Assembly: GCA_030272155.1 (NCBI GenBank)
Contig: CP126200.1
Location: 3,038,001-3,102,000 of the forward strand
Source of the DNA: Tetradesmus obliquus
Lineage: Eukaryota; Chlorophyta; Chlorophyceae; Sphaeropleales; Scenedesmaceae
Length of the DNA stretch: 64,000 bases
Direction: 5' to 3'
A program made the translations under genes and the position numbers. How positions within the stretch are numbered: the first letter of the stretch is position 1; every line of letters begins with the position of its first letter. A model generated the notes under the pieces. That model had not been told where the DNA came from and searched no databases. It saw only the letters and a program-made list of their open reading frames with translations. Positions 1 to 60,020 of this stretch are shown one piece after another.

Positions 1-68
1 GTAGGTGATGGCAGCCACAGCAAGGTGCCAGGGCAGCACTTGTTGCGCGCAACTTGTGTGCACTCTGT

Positions 69-1999
69 CTACCTGAAAGGGAATGGTGCATACAGGCCAG
101 CATTGTCAATGACTGCCTGGTAGGTGTATGGCAAGCTGTCCACATCAGCCTGGATTGAAGCAGGCTGTACATCATAGAACAACTGCTCCAGCTTATCCTG
201 GCACTGCTGCGGGGTCGGCTTGCCCGGCCACAAGCTGCGGCGCCATGCCTGCAGTGCCTGGCTCAGGTATGCATGCACATGCTCGACCACCTTGTGCAGA
301 TCAGGACTGAGGGGACACAGGGCAAACCTGTGGTCTTTCGACCAGATGCCGTGCTCGTCCAGCTTGGCACGCGCGTGTGCGCTGTCGTTGTCACTGGACA
401 ACAGCCAGATGGGCTCCTCTCCTGGGTTCTGCTGCGTGTACGCCTGCCACAGCTCGTGCAGCCTCTCACGCAGATCCCGGATGCAATCCTCATACTCATC
501 TGCTGTCATGCCCTTTGCTGGCTCACCCTTTCTGGTCTGCAGGCACAGGGCAGGTTGCAGGCAGCACACCACCAGCAGCAAAACCCGTGGGCAGGCCAAA
601 GGGGTGTTTCAGCAATGAAGCCCAGCAGAGGTGGAGGCCAGGTTTAAACCACATGCTGCTTGAGAGCCATGCAGCCTACAGCAGCAGCAAGCAGTGCTTT
701 ACATGCAGGTGCAAGAACAGCAAGCATGTCAGACTGCTGGCACTGCAAACCGTGTCACGCGGGGACGCTTGCTTCAAGTGTCATGTGTGCAGCAAGAAGG
801 GCAGCAAGTACGAGAAGCAGCTGTATGCTTTGCTGAACAGCAACGCAGCTGTCACCGCATACGCTGTGGAGGCAGTGGCTATGGGCAGGAAGATACAGCT
901 GCAGATACCTAACAGCAAGCAGGGGCTGTGGCTGAACAGGCACAGATGGGATGCAGTGCTGCTGCAGCCGGATAGCTTGCTGATTGAGGTGCAAGGAGAG
1001 CAGCACATAGACAAGGAGGACGGCAAGCGCAACAACAGGGGTGACACACTAGCAGACAGGCAGGCCAAGGACCAGGCATTGGCAGATGCAGCGCTGGCCG
1101 ACGGTTTCAGTGTGCTGTGGCTGCACCCAGGTGCTGCAGATGATGTGCGGGGCCGCGCCAGGCGCTGGGCAGCAGCTGTGCAGGTGGCGCTGGAGCATGT
1201 TGCTGCCAAGCAGCGCCCCAAGCTGTTCAAGGCCTGAACTCACCCGGTAATCACAGCCGTCTCTGTCTGCTGCCATGCCGCTTGTGCCAGTGAAGAATTT
1301 GATCCACACAGGACCCAGCAGGTAGTTGACGCCAATGATGTACTTCAGCTTTGCCGCGCTGTTGTTGTAGCGGGGCACAGGTGTGCGCCAGTGCCAGTCC
1401 TCTTCACCAGCACTGAACCAGCCCATGTAGGATTCCTTGCTCAAGCAGATCACCTTCTCATCCACCCACACCACAGCAGCCTTGTCAGCTTGCAGCCGCG
1501 CCTTATTTTCTGCGCTGACGTCGATTCTGCTCTGCCTGTGCTGGTCATCCAGGTAGGCCCTGTCGCGCACAACCCCATACTTAAAGCGGGGGTCAAACTC
1601 CTTGAGGTTGTTGGTCAGGGTCTCCGGAGTGATGCCGGCGCCCGTCACGATGTTGTGCACCACCGCGCTCTCAGCAATCAGCTGCTCCGCTGAGGTGTAC
1701 GGACCCTGCCTGCCGGCCAACCACCAGTTGCGGGCCTCGACATAGCAAGCAGTTACCTGCCGCTCTGTCAAAACCTTGTGGCGCCCGCTGCTGTGGGCGC
1801 AACCCTCAACCACGCCGTCGTCACCCAGGCGTGGGCCCCATATTTCAACGTATTCACCGGGGTTGCTGGGCAGGTCGTAGTGTGCAGCTTGCAGGCGCTT
1901 GCGGAACTCTGCTGTGGCGTCAACTAGATTACCAGAACTTGCCCTCCAGGCAAGGCCAGCAGTGTATTGGTAGACTGGTGGATAGGTCATATGCTGCAT
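69..1999 (-). CDS. Tc1/mariner-like DDE transposase, copy 1 (two exons)
   Basis: Predicted exons are 1999-1244 and 536-69 on the minus strand, giving 407 aa. The intron (1243-537, 707 nt) has donor GTGAGT and acceptor CTGCAG, and both sides are phase 0. Exon 1 carries an N-terminal region expected to bind DNA and the first acidic site in VWVDEK (D180). Exon 2 carries SSDNDSAH (D301) and SPDLHKVVEHVHAYL (E337). D301 and E337 are separated by 35 residues, close to the DD34E spacing of Tc1-type enzymes, and the C-terminus ends in a QAVID motif much like those transposases. Neither exon alone has the whole triad, so splicing is needed for an active enzyme. The intron is filled on the other strand by the nuclease exon at 543-1237. 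The family call rests on motifs only. Confidence 0.8.
543..1237 (+). CDS. Vsr/PD-(D/E)xK-like nuclease, last exon only (5' exons lie left of the window)
   Basis: This is the terminal exon of the nuclease described in full at 3150-4919. Its two 5' exons should lie beyond the left edge, because the gene starts in the preceding part of the cargo. The exon begins right after CTGCAG (537-542) and ends with TGA at 1235-1237. It therefore sits inside the transposase intron 537-1243 with 6 nt left on each side. An internal ATG at 653 would give a 194-aa protein that keeps the Cys cluster and nuclease core but loses the AT-hook-like stretch. Confidence 0.6.
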
Positions 2000-2182
2000 G
2001 TATCACGCCGAACCCTAGTTAGTACTGAACCTTGGACATGTGGCGTGTTGGTGCTCATTGTGCATGGACGGGGGCAGCACTCTGAGGCGGGCACAGTAGC
2101 GCAGCCCTGAGTTGATTGGCTACATCACATTTAAAATGCAATGCTGCGCTGCGATGCTACAGCATTAAATTGTATTTTGCCT

Positions 2183-2897
2183 CACTGGGTCTAGTAAAGA
2201 ATCTCGCGCCATATATGCAGGGATGTAGCCAAGATCCCTATGCATCTATTGGCGTGCTCAATTGATGCGCTGCATGCGTGTGTGCTCTGGAAAACGAGTT
2301 TACGTATGTCCCTCCTCGCAGTTAAAAACGGCGGGGATAGGCAGGTTTTGCTGCGGCTGCGCTGCTTCGAGTGACACATAAAAATATGGAATGTGTTTGC
2401 ATGCAGCAGCAGGGCTGGCTGTGTGTTGTGTGTGGCGATCCAGGGCTGTGATGCGCTTGCCATGCCAAAGTGAACTCGTGATGCTTGCCCTGCTTGATTG
2501 AGCTGAGTGCCGAAAACATGTTTTCTGAGTATCGAGATTTTGGTTGTGTTGCTGTTGTGAGGCGTGCTGCAGCAGCAGCCCAGCTTGTTCACCTGATGCC
2601 TGCAAATAGCTCCTGTGGCCTTGCTGTGCTGCTGCGTGCTGATGAGAGCCCTGTGCCACGGGGGGGTTTCGATGCTATTGTGTGGTGCAAGTGTGGGTGT
2701 AAAACAGGCGTCACTGAGGGGTGTCACCAGCAGCAGCAGCAGGCAGCAGGTTGGCAGTGTCTGCATTGGCCCTGTTCAAGGCTTCATTGTGTGCTCAAGG
2801 TAACCACGATTATACATACGAAGCTGCGTTGGATAGTATTGCGGCCGTGCGCAACAGGCTGCATGTGAACGTGTGAGATTCTTTTCTCGACCCAGTG
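2183..2897. mobile_element. 715-bp segment with 23-bp terminal inverted repeats (MITE-like), copy 1
   Basis: The left end (2183-2205) starts CACTGGGTC and the right end (2875-2897) finishes GACCCAGTG. The two 23-nt arms are inverted copies with two mismatches, and a further ATGCAG is shared a little inward. The interior has no frame I believe to be a gene. The flanks (GCCT before, AAGC after) show no target-site duplication. Because the whole array ends exactly at this right terminus at 13943, the inverted repeat is probably a real transposon end. Whether the transposase encoded alongside acts on it is unknown. Confidence 0.75.
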
Positions 2898-3149
2898 AAG
2901 CAGCACCACTTTTGGGGCCCCGGTTTAGGGCGCAAGTTGTCAGTGTGGCACAAGCCTGTAAATTCGTGATATAATTCATGGATGCAGTTCTTCTGTATGT
3001 GCTTAACATACGTGATGCCGCTCAGCGCGACAGCCTTAATACGCACAGCTCTGCCGTGGTGAAGTTCCAGTGCAGGCAGTTTCCCTGTGGACCTCGCGAT
3101 ATTCGCCTCTTCGCCTGTCTGCTTCCGCCCAATTTACAATCGAAATCGA
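2898..3149. promoter_or_regulatory. Upstream region of the nuclease gene within each cargo
   Basis: About 250 bp lie between the TIR segment and the nuclease start. I see no strong TATA box. The AT-rich stretch ATATAATTC near 2969 is the nearest candidate. The same sequence recurs 3682 and 7364 bp downstream. No promoter element can be assigned firmly. Confidence 0.25.
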
Positions 3150-4919
3150 ATGAGTGGTCACGCCGGAGCATTGCCGCAGCAAGCAGCCTCCGCAATGACA
3201 ACAGCGGAGCCCGGGATGTCAACACCGGTGAGCTGCTGTTGCTGCCCGGGCGCTCGTTGTGCTGCCATAACAATCAATCATGTGAGCAGTATATTAATAA
3301 GGATTGATCAGCTGCGCGTATATCAGCAGCACCGCGGCCGTGCTCCGCAGTTTGACCATGAAGCAGCAGCTGTCTCCCTGCAGCCACAGCTTGCTGCACT
3401 ACAACACCAAGGAACGCCTTGACAGCCAAACTTGCGTGCCCAAATAATCAAAATACACTTCTTCATGCTACAAATGCTTCTGCTGCTTGCAGGGCATGCT
3501 TGAACTGCAGCCAGAAAGCCAACAACCTTGCAGCAGCAGCAGTACGAGCCAGCAGTGCGGCTCTGGCTGCCAGCACCACATGGAGACCAGGAGGAAAGGC
3601 AAAGCAGCCAACAAAGGTATGCTTATACTACAGCATATATTGTGCTTCACAACTAGAATAGCAGCTGCTGTGCATCTCAGCTGTAGGTGATGGCAGCCAC
3701 AGCAAGGTGCCAGGGCAGCACTTGTTGCGCGCAACTTGTGTGCACTCTGTCTACCTGAAAGGGAATGGTGCATACAGGCCAGCATTGTCAATGACTGCCT
3801 GGTAGGTGTATGGCAAGCTGTCCACATCAGCCTGGATTGAAGCAGGCTGTACATCATAGAACAACTGCTCCAGCTTATCCTGGCACTGCTGCGGGGTCGG
3901 CTTGCCCGGCCACAAGCTGCGGCGCCATGCCTGCAGTGCCTGGCTCAGGTATGCATGCACATGCTCGACCACCTTGTGCAGATCAGGACTGAGGGGACAC
4001 AGGGCAAACCTGTGGTCTTTCGACCAGATGCCGTGCTCGTCCAGCTTGGCACGCGCGTGTGCGCTGTCGTTGTCACTGGACAACAGCCAGATGGGCTCCT
4101 CTCCTGGGTTCTGCTGCGTGTACGCCTGCCACAGCTCGTGCAGCCTCTCACGCAGATCCCGGATGCAATCCTCATACTCATCTGCTGTCATGCCCTTTGC
4201 TGGCTCACCCTTTCTGGTCTGCAGGCACAGGGCAGGTTGCAGGCAGCACACCACCAGCAGCAAAACCCGTGGGCAGGCCAAAGGGGTGTTTCAGCAATGA
4301 AGCCCAGCAGAGGTGGAGGCCAGGTTTAAACCACATGCTGCTTGAGAGCCATGCAGCCTACAGCAGCAGCAAGCAGTGCTTTACATGCAGGTGCAAGAAC
4401 AGCAAGCATGTCAGACTGCTGGCACTGCAAACCGTGTCACGCGGGGACGCTTGCTTCAAGTGTCATGTGTGCAGCAAGAAGGGCAGCAAGTACGAGAAGC
4501 AGCTGTATGCTTTGCTGAACAGCAACGCAGCTGTCACCGCATACGCTGTGGAGGCAGTGGCTATGGGCAGGAAGATACAGCTGCAGATACCTAACAGCAA
4601 GCAGGGGCTGTGGCTGAACAGGCACAGATGGGATGCAGTGCTGCTGCAGCCGGATAGCTTGCTGATTGAGGTGCAAGGAGAGCAGCACATAGACAAGGAG
4701 GACGGCAAGCGCAACAACAGGGGTGACACACTAGCAGACAGGCAGGCCAAGGACCAGGCATTGGCAGATGCAGCGCTGGCCGACGGTTTCAGTGTGCTGT
4801 GGCTGCACCCAGGTGCTGCAGATGATGTGCGGGGCCGCGCCAGGCGCTGGGCAGCAGCTGTGCAGGTGGCGCTGGAGCATGTTGCTGCCAAGCAGCGCCC
4901 CAAGCTGTTCAAGGCCTGA
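3150..4919 (+). CDS. Vsr/PD-(D/E)xK-like nuclease with Cys cluster and AT-hook-like motif (three exons), complete copy
   Basis: Proposed exons are 3150-3227, 3493-3616 and 4225-4919, giving 298 aa. Donors are GTGAGC and GTATGC; acceptors are TTGCAG and CTGCAG. Phases 0 and 1 agree across both junctions. In order: a basic Gln/Ser/Cys-rich N-terminus with ETRRKGK, an AT-hook-like KPVGRPKG (about 81-88), a Cys cluster (C119, C122, C124, C144, C147, C150), then a compact nuclease-like core with E158 in KYEKQL, D204 in RWDAVLL and E216/Q218/H222 in IEVQGEQH, followed by GFSVLWL. This pattern resembles Vsr, DUF559 and EDxHD homing-type endonucleases. Intron 2 (3617-4224) contains transposase exon 2 on the other strand. 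The last exon is well supported; the two small 5' exons rest on splice signals and phase. Alternatively the protein may start at the internal ATG 4335. Confidence 0.6.
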
Positions 4920-5681
4920 ACTCACCCGGTAATCACAGCCGTCTCTGTCTGCTGCCATGCCGCTTGTGCCAGTGAAGAATTTGATCCACACAGGACCCAG
5001 CAGGTAGTTGACGCCAATGATGTACTTCAGCTTTGCCGCGCTGTTGTTGTAGCGGGGCACAGGTGTGCGCCAGTGCCAGTCCTCTTCACCAGCACTGAAC
5101 CAGCCCATGTAGGATTCCTTGCTCAAGCAGATCACCTTCTCATCCACCCACACCACAGCAGCCTTGTCAGCTTGCAGCCGCGCCTTATTTTCTGCGCTGA
5201 CGTCGATTCTGCTCTGCCTGTGCTGGTCATCCAGGTAGGCCCTGTCGCGCACAACCCCATACTTAAAGCGGGGGTCAAACTCCTTGAGGTTGTTGGTCAG
5301 GGTCTCCGGAGTGATGCCGGCGCCCGTCACGATGTTGTGCACCACCGCGCTCTCAGCAATCAGCTGCTCCGCTGAGGTGTACGGACCCTGCCTGCCGGCC
5401 AACCACCAGTTGCGGGCCTCGACATAGCAAGCAGTTACCTGCCGCTCTGTCAAAACCTTGTGGCGCCCGCTGCTGTGGGCGCAACCCTCAACCACGCCGT
5501 CGTCACCCAGGCGTGGGCCCCATATTTCAACGTATTCACCGGGGTTGCTGGGCAGGTCGTAGTGTGCAGCTTGCAGGCGCTTGCGGAACTCTGCTGTGGC
5601 GTCAACTAGATTACCAGAACTTGCCCTCCAGGCAAGGCCAGCAGTGTATTGGTAGACTGGTGGATAGGTCATATGCTGCAT
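3751..5681 (-). CDS. Tc1/mariner-like DDE transposase, copy 2
   Basis: Same protein as the copy at 69-1999. Exons are 5681-4926 and 4218-3751; the intron is 4925-4219. It is convergent with the nuclease gene 3150-4919. Exon 2 lies wholly inside nuclease intron 3617-4224, and the nuclease's last exon lies wholly inside this gene's intron. The unspliced transcripts overlap in antisense over about 1.2 kb, but the predicted spliced mRNAs share no complementary sequence. The frame is intact and I see no lesion. Confidence 0.8.
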
Positions 5682-5864
5682 GTATCACGCCGAACCCTAG
5701 TTAGTACTGAACCTTGGACATGTGGCGTGTTGGTGCTCATTGTGCATGGACGGGGGCAGCACTCTGAGGCGGGCACAGTAGCGCAGCCCTGAGTTGATTG
5801 GCTACATCACATTTAAAATGCAATGCTGCGCTGCGATGCTACAGCATTAAATTGTATTTTGCCT

Positions 5865-6579
5865 CACTGGGTCTAGTAAAGAATCTCGCGCCATATATGC
5901 AGGGATGTAGCCAAGATCCCTATGCATCTATTGGCGTGCTCAATTGATGCGCTGCATGCGTGTGTGCTCTGGAAAACGAGTTTACGTATGTCCCTCCTCG
6001 CAGTTAAAAACGGCGGGGATAGGCAGGTTTTGCTGCGGCTGCGCTGCTTCGAGTGACACATAAAAATATGGAATGTGTTTGCATGCAGCAGCAGGGCTGG
6101 CTGTGTGTTGTGTGTGGCGATCCAGGGCTGTGATGCGCTTGCCATGCCAAAGTGAACTCGTGATGCTTGCCCTGCTTGATTGAGCTGAGTGCCGAAAACA
6201 TGTTTTCTGAGTATCGAGATTTTGGTTGTGTTGCTGTTGTGAGGCGTGCTGCAGCAGCAGCCCAGCTTGTTCACCTGATGCCTGCAAATAGCTCCTGTGG
6301 CCTTGCTGTGCTGCTGCGTGCTGATGAGAGCCCTGTGCCACGGGGGGGTTTCGATGCTATTGTGTGGTGCAAGTGTGGGTGTAAAACAGGCGTCACTGAG
6401 GGGTGTCACCAGCAGCAGCAGCAGGCAGCAGGTTGGCAGTGTCTGCATTGGCCCTGTTCAAGGCTTCATTGTGTGCTCAAGGTAACCACGATTATACATA
6501 CGAAGCTGCGTTGGATAGTATTGCGGCCGTGCGCAACAGGCTGCATGTGAACGTGTGAGATTCTTTTCTCGACCCAGTG
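5865..6579. mobile_element. 715-bp TIR-bounded segment, copy 2
   Basis: Copy of the segment at 2183-2897, with arms at 5865-5887 and 6557-6579. It lies between the transposase start of one cargo and the nuclease upstream region of the next. Such directly repeated flanking segments are the natural sites for unequal recombination that would expand the array. Confidence 0.75.
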
Positions 6580-6831
6580 AAGCAGCACCACTTTTGGGGC
6601 CCCGGTTTAGGGCGCAAGTTGTCAGTGTGGCACAAGCCTGTAAATTCGTGATATAATTCATGGATGCAGTTCTTCTGTATGTGCTTAACATACGTGATGC
6701 CGCTCAGCGCGACAGCCTTAATACGCACAGCTCTGCCGTGGTGAAGTTCCAGTGCAGGCAGTTTCCCTGTGGACCTCGCGATATTCGCCTCTTCGCCTGT
6801 CTGCTTCCGCCCAATTTACAATCGAAATCGA

Positions 6832-8601
6832 ATGAGTGGTCACGCCGGAGCATTGCCGCAGCAAGCAGCCTCCGCAATGACAACAGCGGAGCCCGGGATG
6901 TCAACACCGGTGAGCTGCTGTTGCTGCCCGGGCGCTCGTTGTGCTGCCATAACAATCAATCATGTGAGCAGTATATTAATAAGGATTGATCAGCTGCGCG
7001 TATATCAGCAGCACCGCGGCCGTGCTCCGCAGTTTGACCATGAAGCAGCAGCTGTCTCCCTGCAGCCACAGCTTGCTGCACTACAACACCAAGGAACGCC
7101 TTGACAGCCAAACTTGCGTGCCCAAATAATCAAAATACACTTCTTCATGCTACAAATGCTTCTGCTGCTTGCAGGGCATGCTTGAACTGCAGCCAGAAAG
7201 CCAACAACCTTGCAGCAGCAGCAGTACGAGCCAGCAGTGCGGCTCTGGCTGCCAGCACCACATGGAGACCAGGAGGAAAGGCAAAGCAGCCAACAAAGGT
7301 ATGCTTATACTACAGCATATATTGTGCTTCACAACTAGAATAGCAGCTGCTGTGCATCTCAGCTGTAGGTGATGGCAGCCACAGCAAGGTGCCAGGGCAG
7401 CACTTGTTGCGCGCAACTTGTGTGCACTCTGTCTACCTGAAAGGGAATGGTGCATACAGGCCAGCATTGTCAATGACTGCCTGGTAGGTGTATGGCAAGC
7501 TGTCCACATCAGCCTGGATTGAAGCAGGCTGTACATCATAGAACAACTGCTCCAGCTTATCCTGGCACTGCTGCGGGGTCGGCTTGCCCGGCCACAAGCT
7601 GCGGCGCCATGCCTGCAGTGCCTGGCTCAGGTATGCATGCACATGCTCGACCACCTTGTGCAGATCAGGACTGAGGGGACACAGGGCAAACCTGTGGTCT
7701 TTCGACCAGATGCCGTGCTCGTCCAGCTTGGCACGCGCGTGTGCGCTGTCGTTGTCACTGGACAACAGCCAGATGGGCTCCTCTCCTGGGTTCTGCTGCG
7801 TGTACGCCTGCCACAGCTCGTGCAGCCTCTCACGCAGATCCCGGATGCAATCCTCATACTCATCTGCTGTCATGCCCTTTGCTGGCTCACCCTTTCTGGT
7901 CTGCAGGCACAGGGCAGGTTGCAGGCAGCACACCACCAGCAGCAAAACCCGTGGGCAGGCCAAAGGGGTGTTTCAGCAATGAAGCCCAGCAGAGGTGGAG
8001 GCCAGGTTTAAACCACATGCTGCTTGAGAGCCATGCAGCCTACAGCAGCAGCAAGCAGTGCTTTACATGCAGGTGCAAGAACAGCAAGCATGTCAGACTG
8101 CTGGCACTGCAAACCGTGTCACGCGGGGACGCTTGCTTCAAGTGTCATGTGTGCAGCAAGAAGGGCAGCAAGTACGAGAAGCAGCTGTATGCTTTGCTGA
8201 ACAGCAACGCAGCTGTCACCGCATACGCTGTGGAGGCAGTGGCTATGGGCAGGAAGATACAGCTGCAGATACCTAACAGCAAGCAGGGGCTGTGGCTGAA
8301 CAGGCACAGATGGGATGCAGTGCTGCTGCAGCCGGATAGCTTGCTGATTGAGGTGCAAGGAGAGCAGCACATAGACAAGGAGGACGGCAAGCGCAACAAC
8401 AGGGGTGACACACTAGCAGACAGGCAGGCCAAGGACCAGGCATTGGCAGATGCAGCGCTGGCCGACGGTTTCAGTGTGCTGTGGCTGCACCCAGGTGCTG
8501 CAGATGATGTGCGGGGCCGCGCCAGGCGCTGGGCAGCAGCTGTGCAGGTGGCGCTGGAGCATGTTGCTGCCAAGCAGCGCCCCAAGCTGTTCAAGGCCTG
8601 A
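6832..8601 (+). CDS. Vsr/PD-(D/E)xK-like nuclease, complete copy
   Basis: Copy of the gene at 3150-4919, with exons 6832-6909, 7175-7298 and 7907-8601. The open frame is unchanged. It interlocks with the transposase at 7433-9363 in the same way. Confidence 0.6.
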
Positions 8602-9363
8602 ACTCACCCGGTAATCACAGCCGTCTCTGTCTGCTGCCATGCCGCTTGTGCCAGTGAAGAATTTGATCCACACAGGACCCAGCAGGTAGTTGACGCCAAT
8701 GATGTACTTCAGCTTTGCCGCGCTGTTGTTGTAGCGGGGCACAGGTGTGCGCCAGTGCCAGTCCTCTTCACCAGCACTGAACCAGCCCATGTAGGATTCC
8801 TTGCTCAAGCAGATCACCTTCTCATCCACCCACACCACAGCAGCCTTGTCAGCTTGCAGCCGCGCCTTATTTTCTGCGCTGACGTCGATTCTGCTCTGCC
8901 TGTGCTGGTCATCCAGGTAGGCCCTGTCGCGCACAACCCCATACTTAAAGCGGGGGTCAAACTCCTTGAGGTTGTTGGTCAGGGTCTCCGGAGTGATGCC
9001 GGCGCCCGTCACGATGTTGTGCACCACCGCGCTCTCAGCAATCAGCTGCTCCGCTGAGGTGTACGGACCCTGCCTGCCGGCCAACCACCAGTTGCGGGCC
9101 TCGACATAGCAAGCAGTTACCTGCCGCTCTGTCAAAACCTTGTGGCGCCCGCTGCTGTGGGCGCAACCCTCAACCACGCCGTCGTCACCCAGGCGTGGGC
9201 CCCATATTTCAACGTATTCACCGGGGTTGCTGGGCAGGTCGTAGTGTGCAGCTTGCAGGCGCTTGCGGAACTCTGCTGTGGCGTCAACTAGATTACCAGA
9301 ACTTGCCCTCCAGGCAAGGCCAGCAGTGTATTGGTAGACTGGTGGATAGGTCATATGCTGCAT
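7433..9363 (-). CDS. Tc1/mariner-like DDE transposase, copy 3
   Basis: Exons 9363-8608 and 7900-7433 encode the same 407-aa product as the other copies, with the D/D/E residues intact. The intron 8607-7901 is occupied on the plus strand by the nuclease exon 7907-8601. Confidence 0.8.
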
Positions 9364-9546
9364 GTATCACGCCGAACCCTAGTTAGTACTGAACCTTGGA
9401 CATGTGGCGTGTTGGTGCTCATTGTGCATGGACGGGGGCAGCACTCTGAGGCGGGCACAGTAGCGCAGCCCTGAGTTGATTGGCTACATCACATTTAAAA
9501 TGCAATGCTGCGCTGCGATGCTACAGCATTAAATTGTATTTTGCCT

Positions 9547-10261
9547 CACTGGGTCTAGTAAAGAATCTCGCGCCATATATGCAGGGATGTAGCCAAGATC
9601 CCTATGCATCTATTGGCGTGCTCAATTGATGCGCTGCATGCGTGTGTGCTCTGGAAAACGAGTTTACGTATGTCCCTCCTCGCAGTTAAAAACGGCGGGG
9701 ATAGGCAGGTTTTGCTGCGGCTGCGCTGCTTCGAGTGACACATAAAAATATGGAATGTGTTTGCATGCAGCAGCAGGGCTGGCTGTGTGTTGTGTGTGGC
9801 GATCCAGGGCTGTGATGCGCTTGCCATGCCAAAGTGAACTCGTGATGCTTGCCCTGCTTGATTGAGCTGAGTGCCGAAAACATGTTTTCTGAGTATCGAG
9901 ATTTTGGTTGTGTTGCTGTTGTGAGGCGTGCTGCAGCAGCAGCCCAGCTTGTTCACCTGATGCCTGCAAATAGCTCCTGTGGCCTTGCTGTGCTGCTGCG
10001 TGCTGATGAGAGCCCTGTGCCACGGGGGGGTTTCGATGCTATTGTGTGGTGCAAGTGTGGGTGTAAAACAGGCGTCACTGAGGGGTGTCACCAGCAGCAG
10101 CAGCAGGCAGCAGGTTGGCAGTGTCTGCATTGGCCCTGTTCAAGGCTTCATTGTGTGCTCAAGGTAACCACGATTATACATACGAAGCTGCGTTGGATAG
10201 TATTGCGGCCGTGCGCAACAGGCTGCATGTGAACGTGTGAGATTCTTTTCTCGACCCAGTG
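9547..10261. mobile_element. 715-bp TIR-bounded segment, copy 3
   Basis: Copy of 2183-2897, with inverted arms at 9547-9569 and 10239-10261. No gene or target-site duplication is seen. Confidence 0.75.
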
Positions 10262-10513
10262 AAGCAGCACCACTTTTGGGGCCCCGGTTTAGGGCGCAAG
10301 TTGTCAGTGTGGCACAAGCCTGTAAATTCGTGATATAATTCATGGATGCAGTTCTTCTGTATGTGCTTAACATACGTGATGCCGCTCAGCGCGACAGCCT
10401 TAATACGCACAGCTCTGCCGTGGTGAAGTTCCAGTGCAGGCAGTTTCCCTGTGGACCTCGCGATATTCGCCTCTTCGCCTGTCTGCTTCCGCCCAATTTA
10501 CAATCGAAATCGA

Positions 10514-12283
10514 ATGAGTGGTCACGCCGGAGCATTGCCGCAGCAAGCAGCCTCCGCAATGACAACAGCGGAGCCCGGGATGTCAACACCGGTGAGCTGC
10601 TGTTGCTGCCCGGGCGCTCGTTGTGCTGCCATAACAATCAATCATGTGAGCAGTATATTAATAAGGATTGATCAGCTGCGCGTATATCAGCAGCACCGCG
10701 GCCGTGCTCCGCAGTTTGACCATGAAGCAGCAGCTGTCTCCCTGCAGCCACAGCTTGCTGCACTACAACACCAAGGAACGCCTTGACAGCCAAACTTGCG
10801 TGCCCAAATAATCAAAATACACTTCTTCATGCTACAAATGCTTCTGCTGCTTGCAGGGCATGCTTGAACTGCAGCCAGAAAGCCAACAACCTTGCAGCAG
10901 CAGCAGTACGAGCCAGCAGTGCGGCTCTGGCTGCCAGCACCACATGGAGACCAGGAGGAAAGGCAAAGCAGCCAACAAAGGTATGCTTATACTACAGCAT
11001 ATATTGTGCTTCACAACTAGAATAGCAGCTGCTGTGCATCTCAGCTGTAGGTGATGGCAGCCACAGCAAGGTGCCAGGGCAGCACTTGTTGCGCGCAACT
11101 TGTGTGCACTCTGTCTACCTGAAAGGGAATGGTGCATACAGGCCAGCATTGTCAATGACTGCCTGGTAGGTGTATGGCAAGCTGTCCACATCAGCCTGGA
11201 TTGAAGCAGGCTGTACATCATAGAACAACTGCTCCAGCTTATCCTGGCACTGCTGCGGGGTCGGCTTGCCCGGCCACAAGCTGCGGCGCCATGCCTGCAG
11301 TGCCTGGCTCAGGTATGCATGCACATGCTCGACCACCTTGTGCAGATCAGGACTGAGGGGACACAGGGCAAACCTGTGGTCTTTCGACCAGATGCCGTGC
11401 TCGTCCAGCTTGGCACGCGCGTGTGCGCTGTCGTTGTCACTGGACAACAGCCAGATGGGCTCCTCTCCTGGGTTCTGCTGCGTGTACGCCTGCCACAGCT
11501 CGTGCAGCCTCTCACGCAGATCCCGGATGCAATCCTCATACTCATCTGCTGTCATGCCCTTTGCTGGCTCACCCTTTCTGGTCTGCAGGCACAGGGCAGG
11601 TTGCAGGCAGCACACCACCAGCAGCAAAACCCGTGGGCAGGCCAAAGGGGTGTTTCAGCAATGAAGCCCAGCAGAGGTGGAGGCCAGGTTTAAACCACAT
11701 GCTGCTTGAGAGCCATGCAGCCTACAGCAGCAGCAAGCAGTGCTTTACATGCAGGTGCAAGAACAGCAAGCATGTCAGACTGCTGGCACTGCAAACCGTG
11801 TCACGCGGGGACGCTTGCTTCAAGTGTCATGTGTGCAGCAAGAAGGGCAGCAAGTACGAGAAGCAGCTGTATGCTTTGCTGAACAGCAACGCAGCTGTCA
11901 CCGCATACGCTGTGGAGGCAGTGGCTATGGGCAGGAAGATACAGCTGCAGATACCTAACAGCAAGCAGGGGCTGTGGCTGAACAGGCACAGATGGGATGC
12001 AGTGCTGCTGCAGCCGGATAGCTTGCTGATTGAGGTGCAAGGAGAGCAGCACATAGACAAGGAGGACGGCAAGCGCAACAACAGGGGTGACACACTAGCA
12101 GACAGGCAGGCCAAGGACCAGGCATTGGCAGATGCAGCGCTGGCCGACGGTTTCAGTGTGCTGTGGCTGCACCCAGGTGCTGCAGATGATGTGCGGGGCC
12201 GCGCCAGGCGCTGGGCAGCAGCTGTGCAGGTGGCGCTGGAGCATGTTGCTGCCAAGCAGCGCCCCAAGCTGTTCAAGGCCTGA
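10514..12283 (+). CDS. Vsr/PD-(D/E)xK-like nuclease, complete copy (rightmost)
   Basis: Exons 10514-10591, 10857-10980 and 11589-12283, same product as at 3150-4919. This is the last nuclease gene in the array: the next unit is truncated at 13943, before the position where another nuclease would start. Confidence 0.6.
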
Positions 12284-13045
12284 ACTCACCCGGTAATCAC
12301 AGCCGTCTCTGTCTGCTGCCATGCCGCTTGTGCCAGTGAAGAATTTGATCCACACAGGACCCAGCAGGTAGTTGACGCCAATGATGTACTTCAGCTTTGC
12401 CGCGCTGTTGTTGTAGCGGGGCACAGGTGTGCGCCAGTGCCAGTCCTCTTCACCAGCACTGAACCAGCCCATGTAGGATTCCTTGCTCAAGCAGATCACC
12501 TTCTCATCCACCCACACCACAGCAGCCTTGTCAGCTTGCAGCCGCGCCTTATTTTCTGCGCTGACGTCGATTCTGCTCTGCCTGTGCTGGTCATCCAGGT
12601 AGGCCCTGTCGCGCACAACCCCATACTTAAAGCGGGGGTCAAACTCCTTGAGGTTGTTGGTCAGGGTCTCCGGAGTGATGCCGGCGCCCGTCACGATGTT
12701 GTGCACCACCGCGCTCTCAGCAATCAGCTGCTCCGCTGAGGTGTACGGACCCTGCCTGCCGGCCAACCACCAGTTGCGGGCCTCGACATAGCAAGCAGTT
12801 ACCTGCCGCTCTGTCAAAACCTTGTGGCGCCCGCTGCTGTGGGCGCAACCCTCAACCACGCCGTCGTCACCCAGGCGTGGGCCCCATATTTCAACGTATT
12901 CACCGGGGTTGCTGGGCAGGTCGTAGTGTGCAGCTTGCAGGCGCTTGCGGAACTCTGCTGTGGCGTCAACTAGATTACCAGAACTTGCCCTCCAGGCAAG
13001 GCCAGCAGTGTATTGGTAGACTGGTGGATAGGTCATATGCTGCAT
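11115..13045 (-). CDS. Tc1/mariner-like DDE transposase, copy 4
   Basis: Exons 13045-12290 and 11582-11115, same 407-aa product. It is the rightmost complete transposase and interlocks with the nuclease at 10514-12283. Its upstream side is followed by the terminal TIR segment 13229-13943. Confidence 0.8.
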
Positions 13046-13228
13046 GTATCACGCCGAACCCTAGTTAGTACTGAACCTTGGACATGTGGCGTGTTGGTGC
13101 TCATTGTGCATGGACGGGGGCAGCACTCTGAGGCGGGCACAGTAGCGCAGCCCTGAGTTGATTGGCTACATCACATTTAAAATGCAATGCTGCGCTGCGA
13201 TGCTACAGCATTAAATTGTATTTTGCCT

Positions 13229-13943
13229 CACTGGGTCTAGTAAAGAATCTCGCGCCATATATGCAGGGATGTAGCCAAGATCCCTATGCATCTATTGGCG
13301 TGCTCAATTGATGCGCTGCATGCGTGTGTGCTCTGGAAAACGAGTTTACGTATGTCCCTCCTCGCAGTTAAAAACGGCGGGGATAGGCAGGTTTTGCTGC
13401 GGCTGCGCTGCTTCGAGTGACACATAAAAATATGGAATGTGTTTGCATGCAGCAGCAGGGCTGGCTGTGTGTTGTGTGTGGCGATCCAGGGCTGTGATGC
13501 GCTTGCCATGCCAAAGTGAACTCGTGATGCTTGCCCTGCTTGATTGAGCTGAGTGCCGAAAACATGTTTTCTGAGTATCGAGATTTTGGTTGTGTTGCTG
13601 TTGTGAGGCGTGCTGCAGCAGCAGCCCAGCTTGTTCACCTGATGCCTGCAAATAGCTCCTGTGGCCTTGCTGTGCTGCTGCGTGCTGATGAGAGCCCTGT
13701 GCCACGGGGGGGTTTCGATGCTATTGTGTGGTGCAAGTGTGGGTGTAAAACAGGCGTCACTGAGGGGTGTCACCAGCAGCAGCAGCAGGCAGCAGGTTGG
13801 CAGTGTCTGCATTGGCCCTGTTCAAGGCTTCATTGTGTGCTCAAGGTAACCACGATTATACATACGAAGCTGCGTTGGATAGTATTGCGGCCGTGCGCAA
13901 CAGGCTGCATGTGAACGTGTGAGATTCTTTTCTCGACCCAGTG
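13229..13943. mobile_element. 715-bp TIR-bounded segment, terminal copy at the array edge
   Basis: Copy of 2183-2897 whose right arm (13921-13943) ends in CCCAGTG and abuts unrelated DNA starting TTGACATG. In the internal copies the same terminus is followed by AAGCAGCACC. The coincidence of array edge and TIR terminus is the best evidence that this inverted repeat is a functional or formerly functional transposon end. Confidence 0.75.
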
Positions 13944-13951
13944 TTGACATG

Positions 13952-14125
13952 CTGAAGATCAGAGATGGCAGCTTGCACACAGGCCAATAAGCATATGCGG
14001 AAGATCAAAGGTGACAGCTTGCATACAAGCCAATATGCATATGCTGAAGATCACAGATGGCAGCTTGCATACAAGCCAATATGCATATGCACAAGATCAA
14101 AGGCAGGCAGCTTGCATGAGAGCTG
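13952..14125. repeat. 46-bp tandem repeat next to the array, about 3.7 copies
   Basis: Units begin GAAGATCA at about 13952, 13998 and 14044, with a fourth partial unit after them (AAGATCAAAGG). They share GGCAGCTTGCATACAAGCCAATATGCATATGC-type sequence with a few mismatches. The repeat starts within 10 bp of the array end. There are no unique spacers, so it is a plain minisatellite. Confidence 0.85.
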
Positions 14126-33285: not shown

Positions 33286-36200
33286 TGCTGCTGGTCGCCA
33301 TTTGTGTCTTTCCACCTGGTGCCTGCTGCACTGCAGCAGCTGCTGGCAGGTAGAGCAGATACACAAGCCAGTGCAGATGGAACAGCACAACCAAAAGCAG
33401 CAGCAGCAGCAGCAGCAGCAACAGCATTGGGTGGAGGCCGTGCAGGCGTAGTCGGAGCAGACTTGCTGACTGCATCACCAGAAGAGCAGTGCCAGGTAGC
33501 CCCATCAGGCACTACAGCCAGCAAACAGTTTGCTGAGGATGTGGTGGCTGTCGTGTGGCAGTGGCTGCTGCGGCAGCCAGCACCATCAGCTAGCAGCTCA
33601 AGAGCAGCAGCAGCAGCAGCATGTGCTGGCAAGCAACCTCAGATTGCAACGCTGTACTGTGCAGCTGAGCACCTGGTGAGGCACTGCCCTGTGTTGCAGC
33701 TCTTAGAAGCTGAGCATGAGGCCCAGATGGTCCAGCTCCTGACAGCAGCAGCAGCAGCAGCAGCAGCAACAGCAGATACAGGCATGCTGCCAACCAGCCA
33801 GCAGCAGTGGCGGCAGCAGCAGTTGGACGCCACTCACACTGGCCAGCAGCAGACAGGCGTCCATGCTGCTGCTCGAAGCAGCAGGCCTTCGTTGCTGCAT
33901 CACCTGCTGCATGTGCTGGCAGTTGAGCTGACAGCTGCTGTGCAGCAGCATGGGCAGCTGCTGCAGGTGCTGCAAGCAGCTAGGGTGATCAGCTGCAGCT
34001 GCAGGCCTTTGCTGCAGCAGCACAACTTGCAGACGCTGCATCAGTGCATCGAAGCTGACTCTTGTGCAGCAGCCTCAGCTGCTGCACAGAGTATTCAGCA
34101 GCGTGTGTGCAGCAGCTGGGAGACTGCAGATGTGTATGTGTCAGCAGTGCTTGCAATTGCAGCAGGTAGCAAGGGGTGCAGTAACCTGCTGTATGCCAGC
34201 TGTTCAGCTGCTGGTCATGGGCAGCAGCAGCTGTCAAGCGCAGCAGCAGGTTCAGCACACAGCCAAGTGGAGCAGTGGCAGACTGTCACCACCAAGCGCC
34301 AAAGACAGCGCTACAGCCAGCCAGCTGCACTATCAGCAGCGCTGCTGCAGCAGCAGCAGGAGCATCGGCAATCAGCAGCAGTGTCAAACCTGCAGCAGCA
34401 GATGCTGCTGCTGCTGGCAGACTGCATGGTTGATGAGTCAGCCAGCCCAGCCAGCATGAGCAGCGCTGCAACAAGTGTGCGTGTTCCACTCCTGCAAAGC
34501 ATAGACGACCTTTTGTATGGTCACCCGCTGTGGCTCAAGCTGCTGCATGGCGTGTACACTGCTGAACAGCTGCATGGCGTGTACACTGCTGAACAGCTGC
34601 ATGGCGTGGACACTGCTGAACAGCTGCATGGCGTGTACACTGCTGAACAGCTGCATGGCGTGGACACTGCTGAACAGCTGCATGGCGTGTACACTGCTGA
34701 ACAGCTGCATGGCGTGGACACTGCTGAACAGCTGCATGGCGTGTACACTGCTGAACAGCTGCATGGCGTGGACACTGCTGAACAGCTGCATGGCGTGTAC
34801 ACTGCTGAACAGCTGCATGGCGTGGACACTGCTGAACAGCTGCATGGCGTGTACACTGCTGAACAGCTGCATGGCGTGGACACTGCTGAACAGCGCGCCA
34901 GCAGCACACGCATGTACGACAGCAGCAGCAGCAACAGCAGGAGCAGAAACTGTGGTGGGGACGGCGGTGATGAGGTTGATAGGGTTGGCCAGCTGGGCTC
35001 AGGCATGCTGCATCCTGTAACCAGCAAGGTCATCAGCTTTGTGTGCAACCTTACATACCAGCTGCAATCAGGCTGCATTCAGTGCAGCAGCTGCAGCTGC
35101 AGCGGCATCCTCTGCTTCAGCTAGCAGCAGCTGTGCATGCAGTGCAGATGGTGAACCTAGCGGATGCAGCTGCCGGCATCAGCTGCAGTGCTGGTGTCGC
35201 AGCTGCTGCATTTGAAGGCATCAGCTGCGCTGCTGGTGTGGCAGCTGCTGCATTTGAAGGCATCAGCTGCACTGCAAATGCTGTGGCAGCTGCTGCATTT
35301 GAAGGCATCAGCTGCAGTGCTGGTGTCGCAGCTGCTGCATTTGAAGGCATCAGCTGCGCTGCTGGTGTGGCAGCTGCTGCATTTGAAGGCATCAGCTGCA
35401 CTGCAAATGCTGTGGCAGCTGCTGCATTTGAAGGCATCAGCTGCAGTGCTGGTGTGGCAGCTGCTGCATTTGAAGGCATCAGCTGCAGTGCTGGTGTCGC
35501 AGCTGCTGCATTTGAAGGCATCAGCTGCACTGCAAATGCTGTGGCAGCTGCTGCATTTGAAGGCATCAGCTGCAGTGCTGGTGTGGCAGCTGCTGCATTT
35601 GAAGGCATCAGCTGCAGTGCTGGTGTCGCAGCTGCTGCATTTGAAGGCATCAGCTGCACTGCAAATGCTGTGGCAGCTGCTCTGGAGGCAGCAGATGCAG
35701 CACTGCAACAGCACGCACATCAGCAGCAGCTTCTAGATGCGTTTTACGCTATCGTCTGCCCTTCGCTGGATGCTACAGCTGACTTGGCTGCTTACGTAAC
35801 AGACATGAGCAGCATGGAGGCAAGGCTGCACAGCTGCGCGGTTGAAGATGTGGGCAGTGAGGCATTTTGGGGAATGCATTGGCAGCCACTGCAAGCTGCT
35901 GCACAGGCACAGGGGCTGCTGGGCCTGACAGTGTTTCGCAACAGCCTCAGGCACTTTGCAGCAGCTGCAGCTGCAGCTGCAGCGGCAGAGGATGACAGTG
36001 CAGTCCAGGCAGCTTGTGGCGGCGTTGCGCGGGGCAGCTGGTCAGGGCAAGGCCTTGATGATGCCGGCATGGAAGAGCAGCCTGTAGCTGCTGCTGCTGC
36101 TGCCGGCAGCAGCAGGCGCGTTGCTGATGTTGTGCAGCTCATGCCGCAGCTGCTGCAGCACTTCCAGGCGCAATGGGCGGCAGCCACTGAGCTACAGCCA

Positions 36201-55891: not shown

Positions 55892-55939
<48 letters not shown>

Positions 55940-57130
55940 CCCTGCAGGCTCCCTGCCCAGCAGCTTTGCTGCAAGGCTGCTGCTGCAGCAGGACGGATAT
56001 GTGGGCGCCAAGACGATCAAGCCTTCCAGGTCATCAAGCACCGCCACCAGGTCTGCTCTGACCCCAGAGACTGCTGAGGCCACAGCCAACGCTGCCTTTG
56101 GTGGCGTGCACCGCATGATGACTCCTTCCTCCAAGCGCTCCTACGCCACTGTGGATGCCACCGAGAACAATGTCAACAGCAACAACAGGGTGACCGGTCC
56201 CCGCGCCAGGAGCGCACAGGTGAGCAAGCCCTGCCCTCCGGTCGTACTGCCACACGTCACTTGTCCATGCACCCCGTTGCTGGCATCAGCTGAGCTTGTG
56301 CAGTCCAGTCATCGACTGATGCTAACTGTGTTAACGGCATTCAGCTCAGGACGCGAGGCCTTCAACGTACGCGCCTTGTCATGAAGTGAGACCAGTCAGC
56401 ATTGTATGTGGCAGCACACATCAGCCTGCTGGCCGCTCACATCACATGTCTGACTGCTGCTGCTGCCTGTTGCCTCACCGCTGCAGGATACCACTAGTGG
56501 CGGCCCCAACCGCGGTAACGGCCCCTCCTCCATGCCCGCCCTGACCATGGGCCAGGTGTCCCATGCTTCCACATACGAGGGTGCCTCATCTACTGCTGCC
56601 TCCGACAGCCTGGCACTGAACAGGGGTGGAGGCCGCTCCAGGGTGGCAATCAGCGGCACCCTGCTGACCACCCGCACCGGCAGCATGCGTGGTGCTAGCC
56701 GCACTGCATCCTGGGGAGTGACCATGCAGCCGGTGAGTGGCTGCTGTGCCTGCTTGGGAAGCATGTGTGCACAAAAGATGTGCGATATTGTTGTGGGGCT
56801 TGATTCGGCTTCCATGCTGCTGTCCTGCCGCGGCTTTACTTCTGAAAGTGCTCAGCATGCTGACTGCTAAGGTAGCTGGCACTTTCATCACCTCTCTCAT
56901 TCAAGCGCCAGCCGGCAATGCTTGCCTGCTTAATATGCTTGAATCTATGTTCAGCATGTGCATGCCGAGAGTGTCGTGTGGCGATCCTGCCATCGACTTC
57001 TGCTGACCCTCTCTGCTGCTGCTGCTGCCTGCAGGTTGGCAGCAAGGCACTGAGCGGCGCAGCCAACAGCCACATCGTGCTGGCACAGGCCGACTCCGCC
57101 GTCGCCTACGCCCAGGCGGAGCGCAACTAA
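55487..57130 (+). CDS. Small secreted protein of unknown function, paralog A
   Basis: Exons 55487-55535, 55948-56219, 56487-56732 and 57035-57130 join in phase for 220 aa. The first exon is a signal peptide (MQNMKLAVFLVLFSLAG). The mature part is Ser/Thr/Ala/Arg-rich with no Cys, and carries YVGAK, TPETAEATANAAFGGVHRMM, RSRVAISGTLLTTRTG and a DSAVAYAQAERN end. No known domain is recognised. Exon 2 follows a long (CTG)n tract and TTCCCTGCAG. The near-identity of coding sequence with paralog B, beside quite different introns, points to selection on the protein and probably high expression. A wall or extracellular-matrix role is only a guess. Confidence 0.85.
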
Positions 57131-60020
57131 AGAGATGACTCCTCACCTAAACAAGAGCCCTGGGTCCTCCTCCGGCACCTGCAAGTAATCCTCAGCACCA
57201 TTGTTGAACCCCTAGATGAGTGCAGCAACAGCTTTCAGAGGCATTTAGAAGGCATGTTGCTTTTTTTCAGGGTAGCGGAGTGCACAGGGCGCAGAGCGCA
57301 GCTGCACTGCAGCTTGCAAAGGGCTGATGACCACGTTTTGTTGAGTGGTGGGAGAGACAGCAGTTATGAACCAACATACACGGATGTGGCACTGGTACAT
57401 CCCTGTTCTTTGCAGCAGGGCCCTGCAGTGTCTGCAGCACGGTATGCATCTTTTGTTGCGGGCAGCTTCGAACAGCAGGGAGCAAAAGAGCATGCCTGTG
57501 CATGCTGTTTTGTGGCAGTCGGACATCTGAGGGCTTTTTCATGTCAGCTATTTCATGTGGAGTACTAATACAAACACACATGCGACACTGTTTCAACCCT
57601 GTTCTGTTGAGGCAGGGCGCTCCAGTGTGTGCAGCACAGCATGTGCATTTTGTTGTGGGCGGCTTCTAACAGCAGCGAGAAAGAGAGCACACCTGTGCAT
57701 GCTGTTTTGTGGCAGTCGGACATCTGAGGGCTCTTCATGTCTGCTATTTCATGGCGAGTACTAATACAACACACATACTAACTTTGAAAACACACACACT
57801 CTTTGGGAGCCTGTTTTCCCCACAAAGGCTTGGCATTACCGAGTGCTGTGCACACCCTGTGAGGTTCAAAACTCACAGGGATGCATGCAGTCTGCTTGTT
57901 TGCAGCTGGTGTCAGATGTTCAGTGCACAGAGCATGAGCAGCTCATCAGCAGTAGAGTGGGGGCTTCCAAGCACAGCTCGGTCCGTAAATCTGGACAGTC
58001 CAGTGTGGCCTGTTTTTCATCATGACTTGAGTTTTGATGCGTGAGGGCGGCGGCGACAACGTGGGATGGTTGTGACTATGTATGTCTGTTGTGGTGGGAC
58101 CTGCAACTCTGCACACTGCCCTGTCACGGACGGTGCCGAGTTGTGATCTGTGTGACTAAATCAACCTAATAGAGCACGCATGTGTGGTGTTGAAAAGCAA
58201 CTTAATCTAGCTTGTCAGGTGGTGGGCCGCGTGGCTACCATCAACCAAATAGACAGCGTTTGTGTTGTGTGTTGAAGCGGCTGCCGGTGTGTGCCTGTCA
58301 CACCCCTCTTGGTGTTGAAAGGTTAGAACTACTGGCAGTCTATTGTCAACAGAAACTTTTTACTATGCTCCTGCTGCTGGTCAGCAGGAGTCCAAACCGC
58401 CTTCTGGTGCTTCCAGCAGCCAGGCAACTGCCAAGCACGCACCCACTGTCAGCGTATGCGAGCGTGTGCAAAACAGACACTGCCTGGTGATGTGGCTGTT
58501 GCTTGTTGGCTGCAGTGCAACACAAGTGAACACATTTGTGAGTGCACTTCTGTCCAGCAGTGTATATGTGTAGGAGCGTGTGTGTGATGTGTCCAGGCAT
58601 TGCAAAATGCCAGATTGTACTGCGTTGTCAGCATTGCTTGTGTGTGTGCATGCACTCACCACTGCCTGTGTGTATGTGCTGCATGCTGCTTTCTCCTGGT
58701 TTCACGTCACGCAGTGCTCACTGCAGACGTGACCAGGATTGCTTTCAGCTTGTGGCAGAGGAGAGCTGAGCCGATGGGTGGCTGCTCACCATCGTACTGC
58801 TGAATGCATGGTGTGTCACAGCCAGAAGCCACATGTGTGTGTGCTGGGTCTAAGCATGTGCTGCATAGGCAAGGCTGCACAGCTTGCGCTGAATGCATGC
58901 CGGCTGCGTGCAGTTGTTGCTAGTCCTGCTGCCTTCAGTGACTTGGTTCTCTAGCATTAGCTCGTGCTGCATGTTATGTGACGTATCGGCAGTGTAGGCT
59001 TTGATGTGTGGTGTCACAGGTGAAGGGCACAGCCATATGGAAGAGAAGTGAAGCAACACACTGTATATTGGCTGTGATGTTGTGACACAGGCCGCACAAG
59101 CAAGTTCATATGTGTAACATTCTTCCTTGAACCACACCCTTTTGGAATGTGTGTCTTTCTAATGTCCCTATCAAGACTGGACAGCTGCGGATCCAATCGT
59201 CCTTGACACAAGTGTGCTGCTCACAGCTGAAATTCACTGTTCAGGTTTGTTCATGAAAGTTACGCGCGTAACAATGCAACGCCAACCCGACAGAAAAGTC
59301 CAGTTGTTGCAAGGACGCTGGCGTCTTCATAACTTGCAAAATGGCCGTCTGCAACGGCCGTCACAAGCAACACTGTTGTCACTTGCGTGTTCACGTAAGG
59401 CTTTCTACCGCTAGTTAGTTCAGCACCCACCCTGCTGCCGCCGCCATTTGAAACGCCGTGATTGTGCTGCAGTCTACTGCCACTGCAAACACCGCACGTT
59501 TGAACCTCTTATCAAGCCATCAAAAAATCGCAGAAGTCTGGAAGATACCAGCCGCTGCAGTGACCGCATCAGCAGCCTGAGTCAAATAAACGAGGCTGCG
59601 CACGTTAACAGCACCCAGGCACTGCAGAGGATGAATTTGTTTACCGTGATTACCTTGTTCATGGCAATAAACCGTTGCTCACGTTCAGTATCAGAGTCCT
59701 ACCAGACAGCTGCTGCAGTCCACGTCACCACCCGTACTGATCACGCAAACCTGCCACCTGGACGATAGAGCACAGCAGCTACATGTAGCTGTATATTGCC
59801 TAATCGAAGAGATTCATGATCAATCAACCATTGAACCTTATCCAGGTAAGTTCCGCGCCGTGGATCCGAAGTCACCCTTGACGGAGGAAGCGTTGGACCG
59901 GCAAGTAGGACCGTCTCAAGCCCCTCAAAACATTGATATTTGACAATTGAAACGTGTTCTATGGGTTTTTGTGCCAGTTTGACGGTGGGTGAATATCAAT
60001 GTGGGAGTGGGAGTGTGTGG
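57131..60020. other. Intergenic, about 2.9 kb, with a 197-bp tandem duplication
   Basis: Two imperfect copies, about 57373-57570 and 57571-57775, share GTGCATGCTGTTTTGTGGCAGTCGGACATCTGAGGGCT-type sequence at a spacing of 197 bp. The rest is TG-rich with many short TGTGTG runs. No coding frame is believable. Confidence 0.65.

Follow-up and report, generated by a model that had tools for sequence, protein, structure and literature searches.

Can two transposon genes on opposite strands of the same DNA each lie in the introns of the other? The question is raised by a locus of the green alga Tetradesmus obliquus, in a 64,000-nucleotide (nt) stretch of contig CP126200.1 (assembly GCA_030272155.1, positions 3,038,001 to 3,102,000), here called the window. 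In a sequence-only reading, a minus-strand transposase and a plus-strand nuclease were described in this arrangement at positions 3150 to 5681. We find all five exons in place, with the strand alternation and phases as described; within the window each of the two reading frames stays open and in phase after splicing, see Table 1. The predicted genes are interlocked, i.e. each frame is complete only after removal of an intron that carries an exon of the other gene. We think it likely that scenedesmacean green algae carry a DNA transposon family, probably mariner-like, whose gene module is this pair, with the steps of movement and nuclease action proposed below.

From 3751 to 5681 the coding exons tile the DNA on alternating strands, and the only non-coding positions are 4219-4224 (CTGCAG) and 4920-4925 (ACTCAC). 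The latter is the transposase donor in reverse (GTGAGT, 4925-4920, on the minus strand). The former is used as an acceptor twice, for nuclease exon 3 on the plus strand and, read from 4224 to 4219, for transposase exon 2 on the minus strand.

Table 1. Features of the interlocked gene pair and of the surrounding array, in window coordinates.
Feature	Position	Strand	Remarks
Transposase exon 1	4926..5681	-	252 codons, phase 0; first catalytic Asp candidate in VWVDEK
Transposase intron, 707 nt	4219..4925	-	nuclease exon 3, antisense, fills all but 6 nt at each end
Transposase exon 2	3751..4218	-	155 codons and stop (3753-3751); motifs SSDN and SPDLHKVVEHV
Nuclease exon 1 of the sequence-only reading	3150..3227	+	the C17 family has the donor at the same position, but does not share the coding frame; possibly a 5' leader
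Nuclease exon 2	3493..3616	+	ends METRRKGKAANK|G; phase-1 donor GTATGC
Nuclease intron 2	3617..4224	+	opposite strand holds transposase exon 2
Nuclease exon 3	4225..4919	+	Vsr-like domain; stop TGA at 4917-4919
Palindrome CTGCAG	4219..4224	.	3' splice site for both strands; same in the C17 family
Gene module, 2967 bp	2898..5864	.	flanked by two spacers
Spacer (~715 bp, bounded by terminal inverted repeats)	2183..2897	.	repeats at 5865-6579, 9547-10261 and 13229-13943; also solo insertions with a 3-bp target-site duplication
Left terminal inverted repeat CACTGGGTCTAGTAAAGAATCTC	2183..2205	+	
Right terminal inverted repeat GAGATTCTTTTCTCGACCCAGTG	2875..2897	+	
Tandem array of 3682-bp units	1..13943	.	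3.79 perfect copies; units 100% identical within the window
TTG, right copy of the array's 3-bp target-site duplication	13944..13946	+	left copy at C10:2992314-2992316

Four diverged families of the element are present in the genome that carries the window (104.7 Mb, 17 contigs), here named after contigs C10, C17, C15 and C16, with the window on C10. All four have the nuclease antisense between the transposase exons, with the interlock, the intron phases and the splice signals. The other families are only 36-66% identical to the window copy in nuclease exon 3 and 27-48% in transposase exon 1. Its recurrence in such distantly related copies shows that the interlock is genuine and has not arisen from chance open frames. 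The transposase intron has phase 0 and nuclease intron 2 has phase 1 in each of the four families. The nuclease stop directly abuts the reversed donor ACTCAC in C10, C17 and C16 (0 nt) and lies 3 nt from it in C15. The shared CTGCAG acceptor is found in C10 and C17, while in C15 and C16 each strand has an AG of its own, the two lying within 16-17 nt. Judged from these sequences, the interlocked layout is older than the window copy and has been kept through deep divergence. Frame breaks weigh against this picture. The break falls in transposase exon 1 in C16:800k and in each of the two tandem C15 modules, and in nuclease exon 3 in C16:1377k, so that no C15 or C16 copy was read with both genes intact.

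The C17 family also corrects the 5' end of the nuclease. Its exon 2 has 125 nt, not 124, so the frame joining exon 1 to exon 2 is not common to both families, and the description of exon 1 as coding is not borne out. The common start is probably an ATG within exon 2, at 3496 or later. A simpler layout would be one-way nesting, with a one-exon nuclease gene inside the transposase intron and a spurious nuclease exon 2. Every recognisable domain does lie within exon 3, exon 2 is short and of low complexity, and many database nucleases start within exon 3, though these appear to be bacterial-style gene calls. However, in C10, C15 and C16 a short M..TR..G exon (ending METRRKGKAANKG, MHTRSQAKNPDQG and MVYSTRSKGRAPTAG, respectively) stands before a phase-1 donor, and C17 has a phase-1 exon (MPINNQDNHVAAG) in which the TR motif is missing. 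Two database nucleases, P0007 and P0020, join an exon-2-like exon to exon 3, and we regard one-way nesting as improbable.

These database proteins serve as independent gene models. P0007 lacks intron 2 and reads continuously as KKYNTRSSNRPPIAG-LG-VQQQRRHKGRPRKQ, while the matching stretches of C16:800k are about 600 nt apart; it comes either from a spliced transcript or from a copy without the intron. P0020, from Scenedesmus sp. NREL 46B-D3, has the exon-2-like start and lacks the catalytic stretch, perhaps through an error of the model. According to the available part of the genome report, gene models of that species were selected on homology and transcriptome support (PMC7955037). On the transposase side, P0028, an annotated T. 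obliquus transposase of the C16 type, joins ...NPGAPYK to TKKGKKARG, which is the predicted splice. P0024 is another database relative, also from T. obliquus. Among 11 transposase homologues P0028 is spliced, four stop at or near the donor, and six continue into a tail that resembles the nuclease antisense; each of the six matches, which came from two tails, outscored all 30 of its shuffles, and the C16 tail was compared in the wrong frame.

Is the plus-strand frame conserved at the protein level? The sequence-only reading had named this as one of the points on which it would fall, and the frame is constrained among the four families. The ratio of non-synonymous to synonymous substitution rates (dN/dS) was estimated by NG86 for the six pairs among C10, C17, C15 and C16:800k; C16:1377k was omitted for the nuclease because of its frame break. 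Nuclease exon 3 gives 0.43 (C10-C17), 0.40 (C10-C15), 0.48 (C10-C16:800k), 0.28 (C17-C15), 0.39 (C17-C16:800k) and 0.26 (C15-C16:800k), at between-family dS of 0.6 to 2.6, where several values are near saturation. For transposase exon 2 the same pairs give 0.40-0.55. For transposase exon 1 the value is 0.52 in C10-C17, and it lies at 0.71-0.87 when C10 or C17 is compared with the two C16 copies; C15 was omitted here for its frame break, and C16:800k contributes only the roughly 200 codons past its own. Near-identical pairs contain too few changes (4 to 15) to be informative, with dN/dS anywhere from 0 to 1.17; in the nuclease pair C10-C16:1400k eight of ten changes are non-synonymous. At the level of sequence, the comparison between families shows purifying selection on the nuclease frame.

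An open plus-strand frame could also be a by-product, with the transposase as the sole gene and its codon bias keeping the opposite frame open. In a six-frame control on C10-C17 one antisense frame is also low, at 0.47, and long read-through antisense open reading frames exist in C17 and C16:1377k. The 0.47 frame, however, contains 2 and 5 stops, the four other frames lie at 0.95-1.11, and the nuclease frame alone is stop-free in both copies. A second control, C10 against C16:1400k (10 differences), did not discriminate. Moreover, the region is intronic for the transposase, yet C82, E90, R172 and D176 are invariant in 24 nuclease proteins, and the exon 3 peptide is predicted to fold (mean pLDDT 84). 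The by-product explanation is already largely refuted, and we give it almost no credence.

The model of the nuclease resembles Vsr and I-Bth0305I in structure comparison, i.e. it has a Vsr-like fold, and the protein is a probable DNA-cutting enzyme. In an alignment within its own family, D136, E148, Q150 and H154 are conserved in at least 90% of the 24 proteins; we take the Vsr/EDxHD catalytic signature to be E, D, H, D. Upstream of the Vsr-like domain exon 3 has a GRPK and a Cys/His motif, presumably AT-hook-like and zinc-ribbon-like. The nuclease differs from Vsr and I-Bth0305I in this N-terminus, in being transposon-borne and in sequence (14-16% identity), and its profile has no significant sequence match in PDB or Pfam. 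A widened protein search at E <= 0.01 added two proteins to the 26 found earlier at E <= 0.001, for a total of at least 28; both searches scored about 8000 candidates. The nuclease family is narrow and unmatched in Pfam, and in the six loci read the nuclease adjoins this transposase. Genome contigs gave 24 pattern matches for the nuclease, none of them a prokaryotic relative. In viral contigs the nuclease and transposase profiles gave 130 and 71 pattern matches, of which none was confirmed as a relative, and a viral origin was rejected.

The transposase is probably mariner-like. The 17 best Foldseek matches of its weak structure model are all Mos1, Metnase/SETMAR or Sleeping Beauty, and it has a DD34/35E-like catalytic spacing together with SPDxHKxVEHV, which we take to be a mariner-family motif. 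By sequence, no Pfam family matches the window protein (HTH_32 appears at E 0.013 in one of three members), and the profile has no significant match in PDB, with Sleeping Beauty at E 0.1. The element is like Tc1/mariner in its structural ranking, its catalytic spacing and, given that mariner excision leaves 3-nt footprints, in the footprints described below. It is unlike Tc1/mariner in its variable 3-bp target-site duplication (TSD), the antisense gene that fills an intron, the composite arms and the absence of a Pfam transposase match.

These arms are the spacers. Each unit consists of the module and one spacer with inverted repeats CACTGGGTCTAG.../...CTCGACCCAGTG. The window holds the gene pair four times, the first copy being incomplete, a repetition missed in the sequence-only reading. 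It is the right end of a 59.6-kb array (C10:2992317-3051943) of 16 modules and 17 spacers, which begins with CACTGGG, finishes with CCCAGTG and has TTG on both flanks. The C17 and C3 arrays are flanked by CAG/CAG and ATC/ATC. Solo gene-less spacers also carry TSDs (C15:322061, CCT/CCT; C4:21612, GAG/GAG; C10:5212084, CAC/CAC). DNA bounded by CACTGGGTC...GACCCAGTG therefore carries 3-bp TSDs both as lone ~0.7-kb segments and as long segment-module-segment arrays, at all six insertions with both edges read; these six are the three arrays and the three solo spacers, and C6, C8 and the left edges of C2, C15 and C16:800k lie outside the count. A larger element at 2875-5887, with the same inverted repeats read in the opposite sense, was also considered; it does not agree with the CACTGGG/CCCAGTG termini and the TSDs of arrays and solo copies and was rejected. 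The solo spacer at C4:21612-22326, with its GAG duplication, lies 21.6 kb from a contig end. At C10:5212084-5216863 three truncated copies of the spacer (positions 128-715) come after the solo one at 1355 bp spacing, with no nuclease match, and form a small array of a shortened spacer derivative.

Some intervals between modules have no spacer. By hand count this concerns 4 of 60 in C17, 5 of 17 in C2 and 2 of 3 in C6, and none of 15 in either C10 or C3. Three spacer-loss junctions were read; CTG remains in one C2 and one C17 junction, and CAG in one from C15. These remnants can be read as mosaics, in which CAC of one end and GTG of the other were rejoined after a 3-nt staggered cut.

IS630-Tc1-mariner elements are expected to duplicate TA, whereas the six insertions show TTG, CAG, ATC, CCT, GAG and CAC. 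CACTA/EnSpm elements have CACTA/CACTG ends with a 3-bp TSD and a Transposase_21/Tnp2-type transposase. Such ends and duplications are present here with CACTGGGTC (the C16 family, whose ends differ, TCAGTAGGCTGC..., lies outside the TSD data), and no Transposase_21/Tnp2-type Pfam match was found. A composite transposon consists of two insertion sequences around a module. The element is like composite transposons and miniature inverted-repeat transposable elements in that two mobile direct-repeat arms, which also occur solo, surround a gene module, as the C10 array and the three solo spacers show. It departs from composite transposons as generally understood in its central transposase, in arms without a transposase match and in its long tandem arrays.

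A protein search of the genome found the nuclease in 125 places, namely 61 in C17, 18 in C2, 16 each in C10 and C3, four in C6, two in C15, one in C8, and in C16 one near-full copy, four fragments (87%) and two diverged copies. The longest array holds 61 near-identical modules on C17 inside one 3-bp target duplication; the transposase frame is split in one of its units. C15 has the order spacer-module-module-spacer and C16:800k spacer-module-spacer. Copies on different chromosomes are nearly identical; over 1934 bp, 4 of the 18 C2 copies equal the window copy's own score and 14 are slightly lower. The repeat could also be a dead satellite, a non-functional tandem repeat with frames that are relics of one founder, preserved by the recency of the copies. 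The identical window units and the frame breaks in C15, C16:800k and C16:1377k would suit such a repeat; constraint on the frames at the between-family dS given above and the clean TSDs on separate arrays and solo copies would not, and we judge it a shade less probable even than one-way nesting.

Five short or broken transposase matches have no adjacent nuclease match (C6:2326210, C2:4545624, C16:1403556, C15:3200017, C6:5464322) and are probably truncated copies. The C2 array (4.55-4.61 of 8.85 Mb) and the C10 array (2.99-3.05 of 5.66 Mb) lie near the contig middles, and the C17 array (2.10-2.32 of 3.05 Mb) is off this pattern. A 46-bp tandem repeat (window 13949-14117) directly adjoins the window array, and a GT microsatellite lies at the end of the C2 array. 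In six database entries with relatives the longest contigs have 3621, 3660, 3668, 3698, 3708 and 3712 bases, about one unit, and look as if tandem arrays or circles had been collapsed in assembly; in the other entries the longest contigs range from 502 bases up. Outside the array, the window has 27-bp and 42/129-bp tandem repeats, 90-98% alike (34542-34894 and 35175-35681), and a diverged duplication of ~1.2 kb (55912-57132 against 60731-61880), in which three stretches keep their order at 88-91% identity.

We found no element with mutual intron nesting of two transposon genes in the literature (open-licence full text). Overlapping and nested opposite-strand genes are already known; what appears to be new is the mutual nesting within a transposon. 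In the available text of the two reports, Giardia and human Pou5f1/Tcf19 provide opposite-strand genes with introns inside the overlap (PMC6545626, PMC8493703). These pairs are not transposons, and in Pou5f1/Tcf19 the two genes have exons and an intron in common, at identical positions (PMC8493703), whereas the exons here alternate without coding overlap. Closer in setting, algal viruses have mariner elements with a second, nuclease gene (PMC3627910). They share with our pair the mariner transposase, the accessory endonuclease and the algal setting; as far as the available text goes, their nucleases are GIY-YIG, EcoRII-like or of an unnamed restriction type, their TSD is TA and no interlock is described (PMC3627910).

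The sequence-only reading held that the spliced mRNAs share no complementary stretch. This is true of the coding exons and probably not of the untranslated regions (UTRs). TGTAA is the chlorophyte polyadenylation signal. Its first plus-strand occurrence after the nuclease stop is at 6380, beyond transposase exon 1, and its first minus-strand occurrence after the transposase stop is at 3134, beyond nuclease exon 2. The UTRs of the two genes would then share complementary sequence. Unlike the window copy, the C16 family has TGTAA 8 nt downstream of the nuclease stop. As a whole, the earlier interpretation is partly supported.

How could such an element work? The DDE transposase would move anything between an outer pair of CACTGGGTC ends, be it a solo spacer, a single composite or an array. 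The module would travel as the middle of a composite with arms that are themselves mobile, internal arms would sometimes excise and leave the 3-nt mosaic footprint, and the array would grow by unequal recombination between direct spacers. In the least certain step, the Vsr-fold nuclease may cut the element or target DNA, and repair would copy units between arrays. We favour such cleavage for the nuclease because copies on different chromosomes are so alike. A TnsA-like role comes second. Tn7 also encodes a DDE protein together with a restriction-fold nuclease (TnsB and TnsA), and the nuclease could make the second-strand cuts at the element ends, with the first left to the DDE protein. However, TnsA ranks far below Vsr and I-Bth0305I in the structure comparison, and the footprints at lost spacers resemble those of an unaided mariner transposase, as we understand its chemistry; we consider this role unlikely, if less so than the alternatives above.

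The interlock itself may block intron loss and hold the two genes together, as loss of either intron from the DNA would be harmful by deleting an exon of the other gene. A similar harm in antisense overlaps has been proposed for Giardia introns, in the part of the report available (PMC6545626). Because the two genes run through the same DNA in opposite orientations, their transcripts could form double-stranded RNA and their transcription could collide, and the double transcription might dampen both genes. Tentatively, and with hardly more confidence than we grant the TnsA-like role, the element may be a two-protein eukaryotic system of a mariner-like DDE transposase and a Vsr-fold nuclease, in which the interlock acts as an antisense brake in each copy, and arms and nuclease-driven repair lead to self-homogenising arrays.

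Mutual intron nesting that is kept through deep divergence would offer a natural case for why introns persist in transposons. The pair would also provide a testable system of two genes whose pre-mRNAs are antisense to each other. With modules between mobile direct arms and arrays of up to 61 modules, the element illustrates how a transposon may become a satellite.
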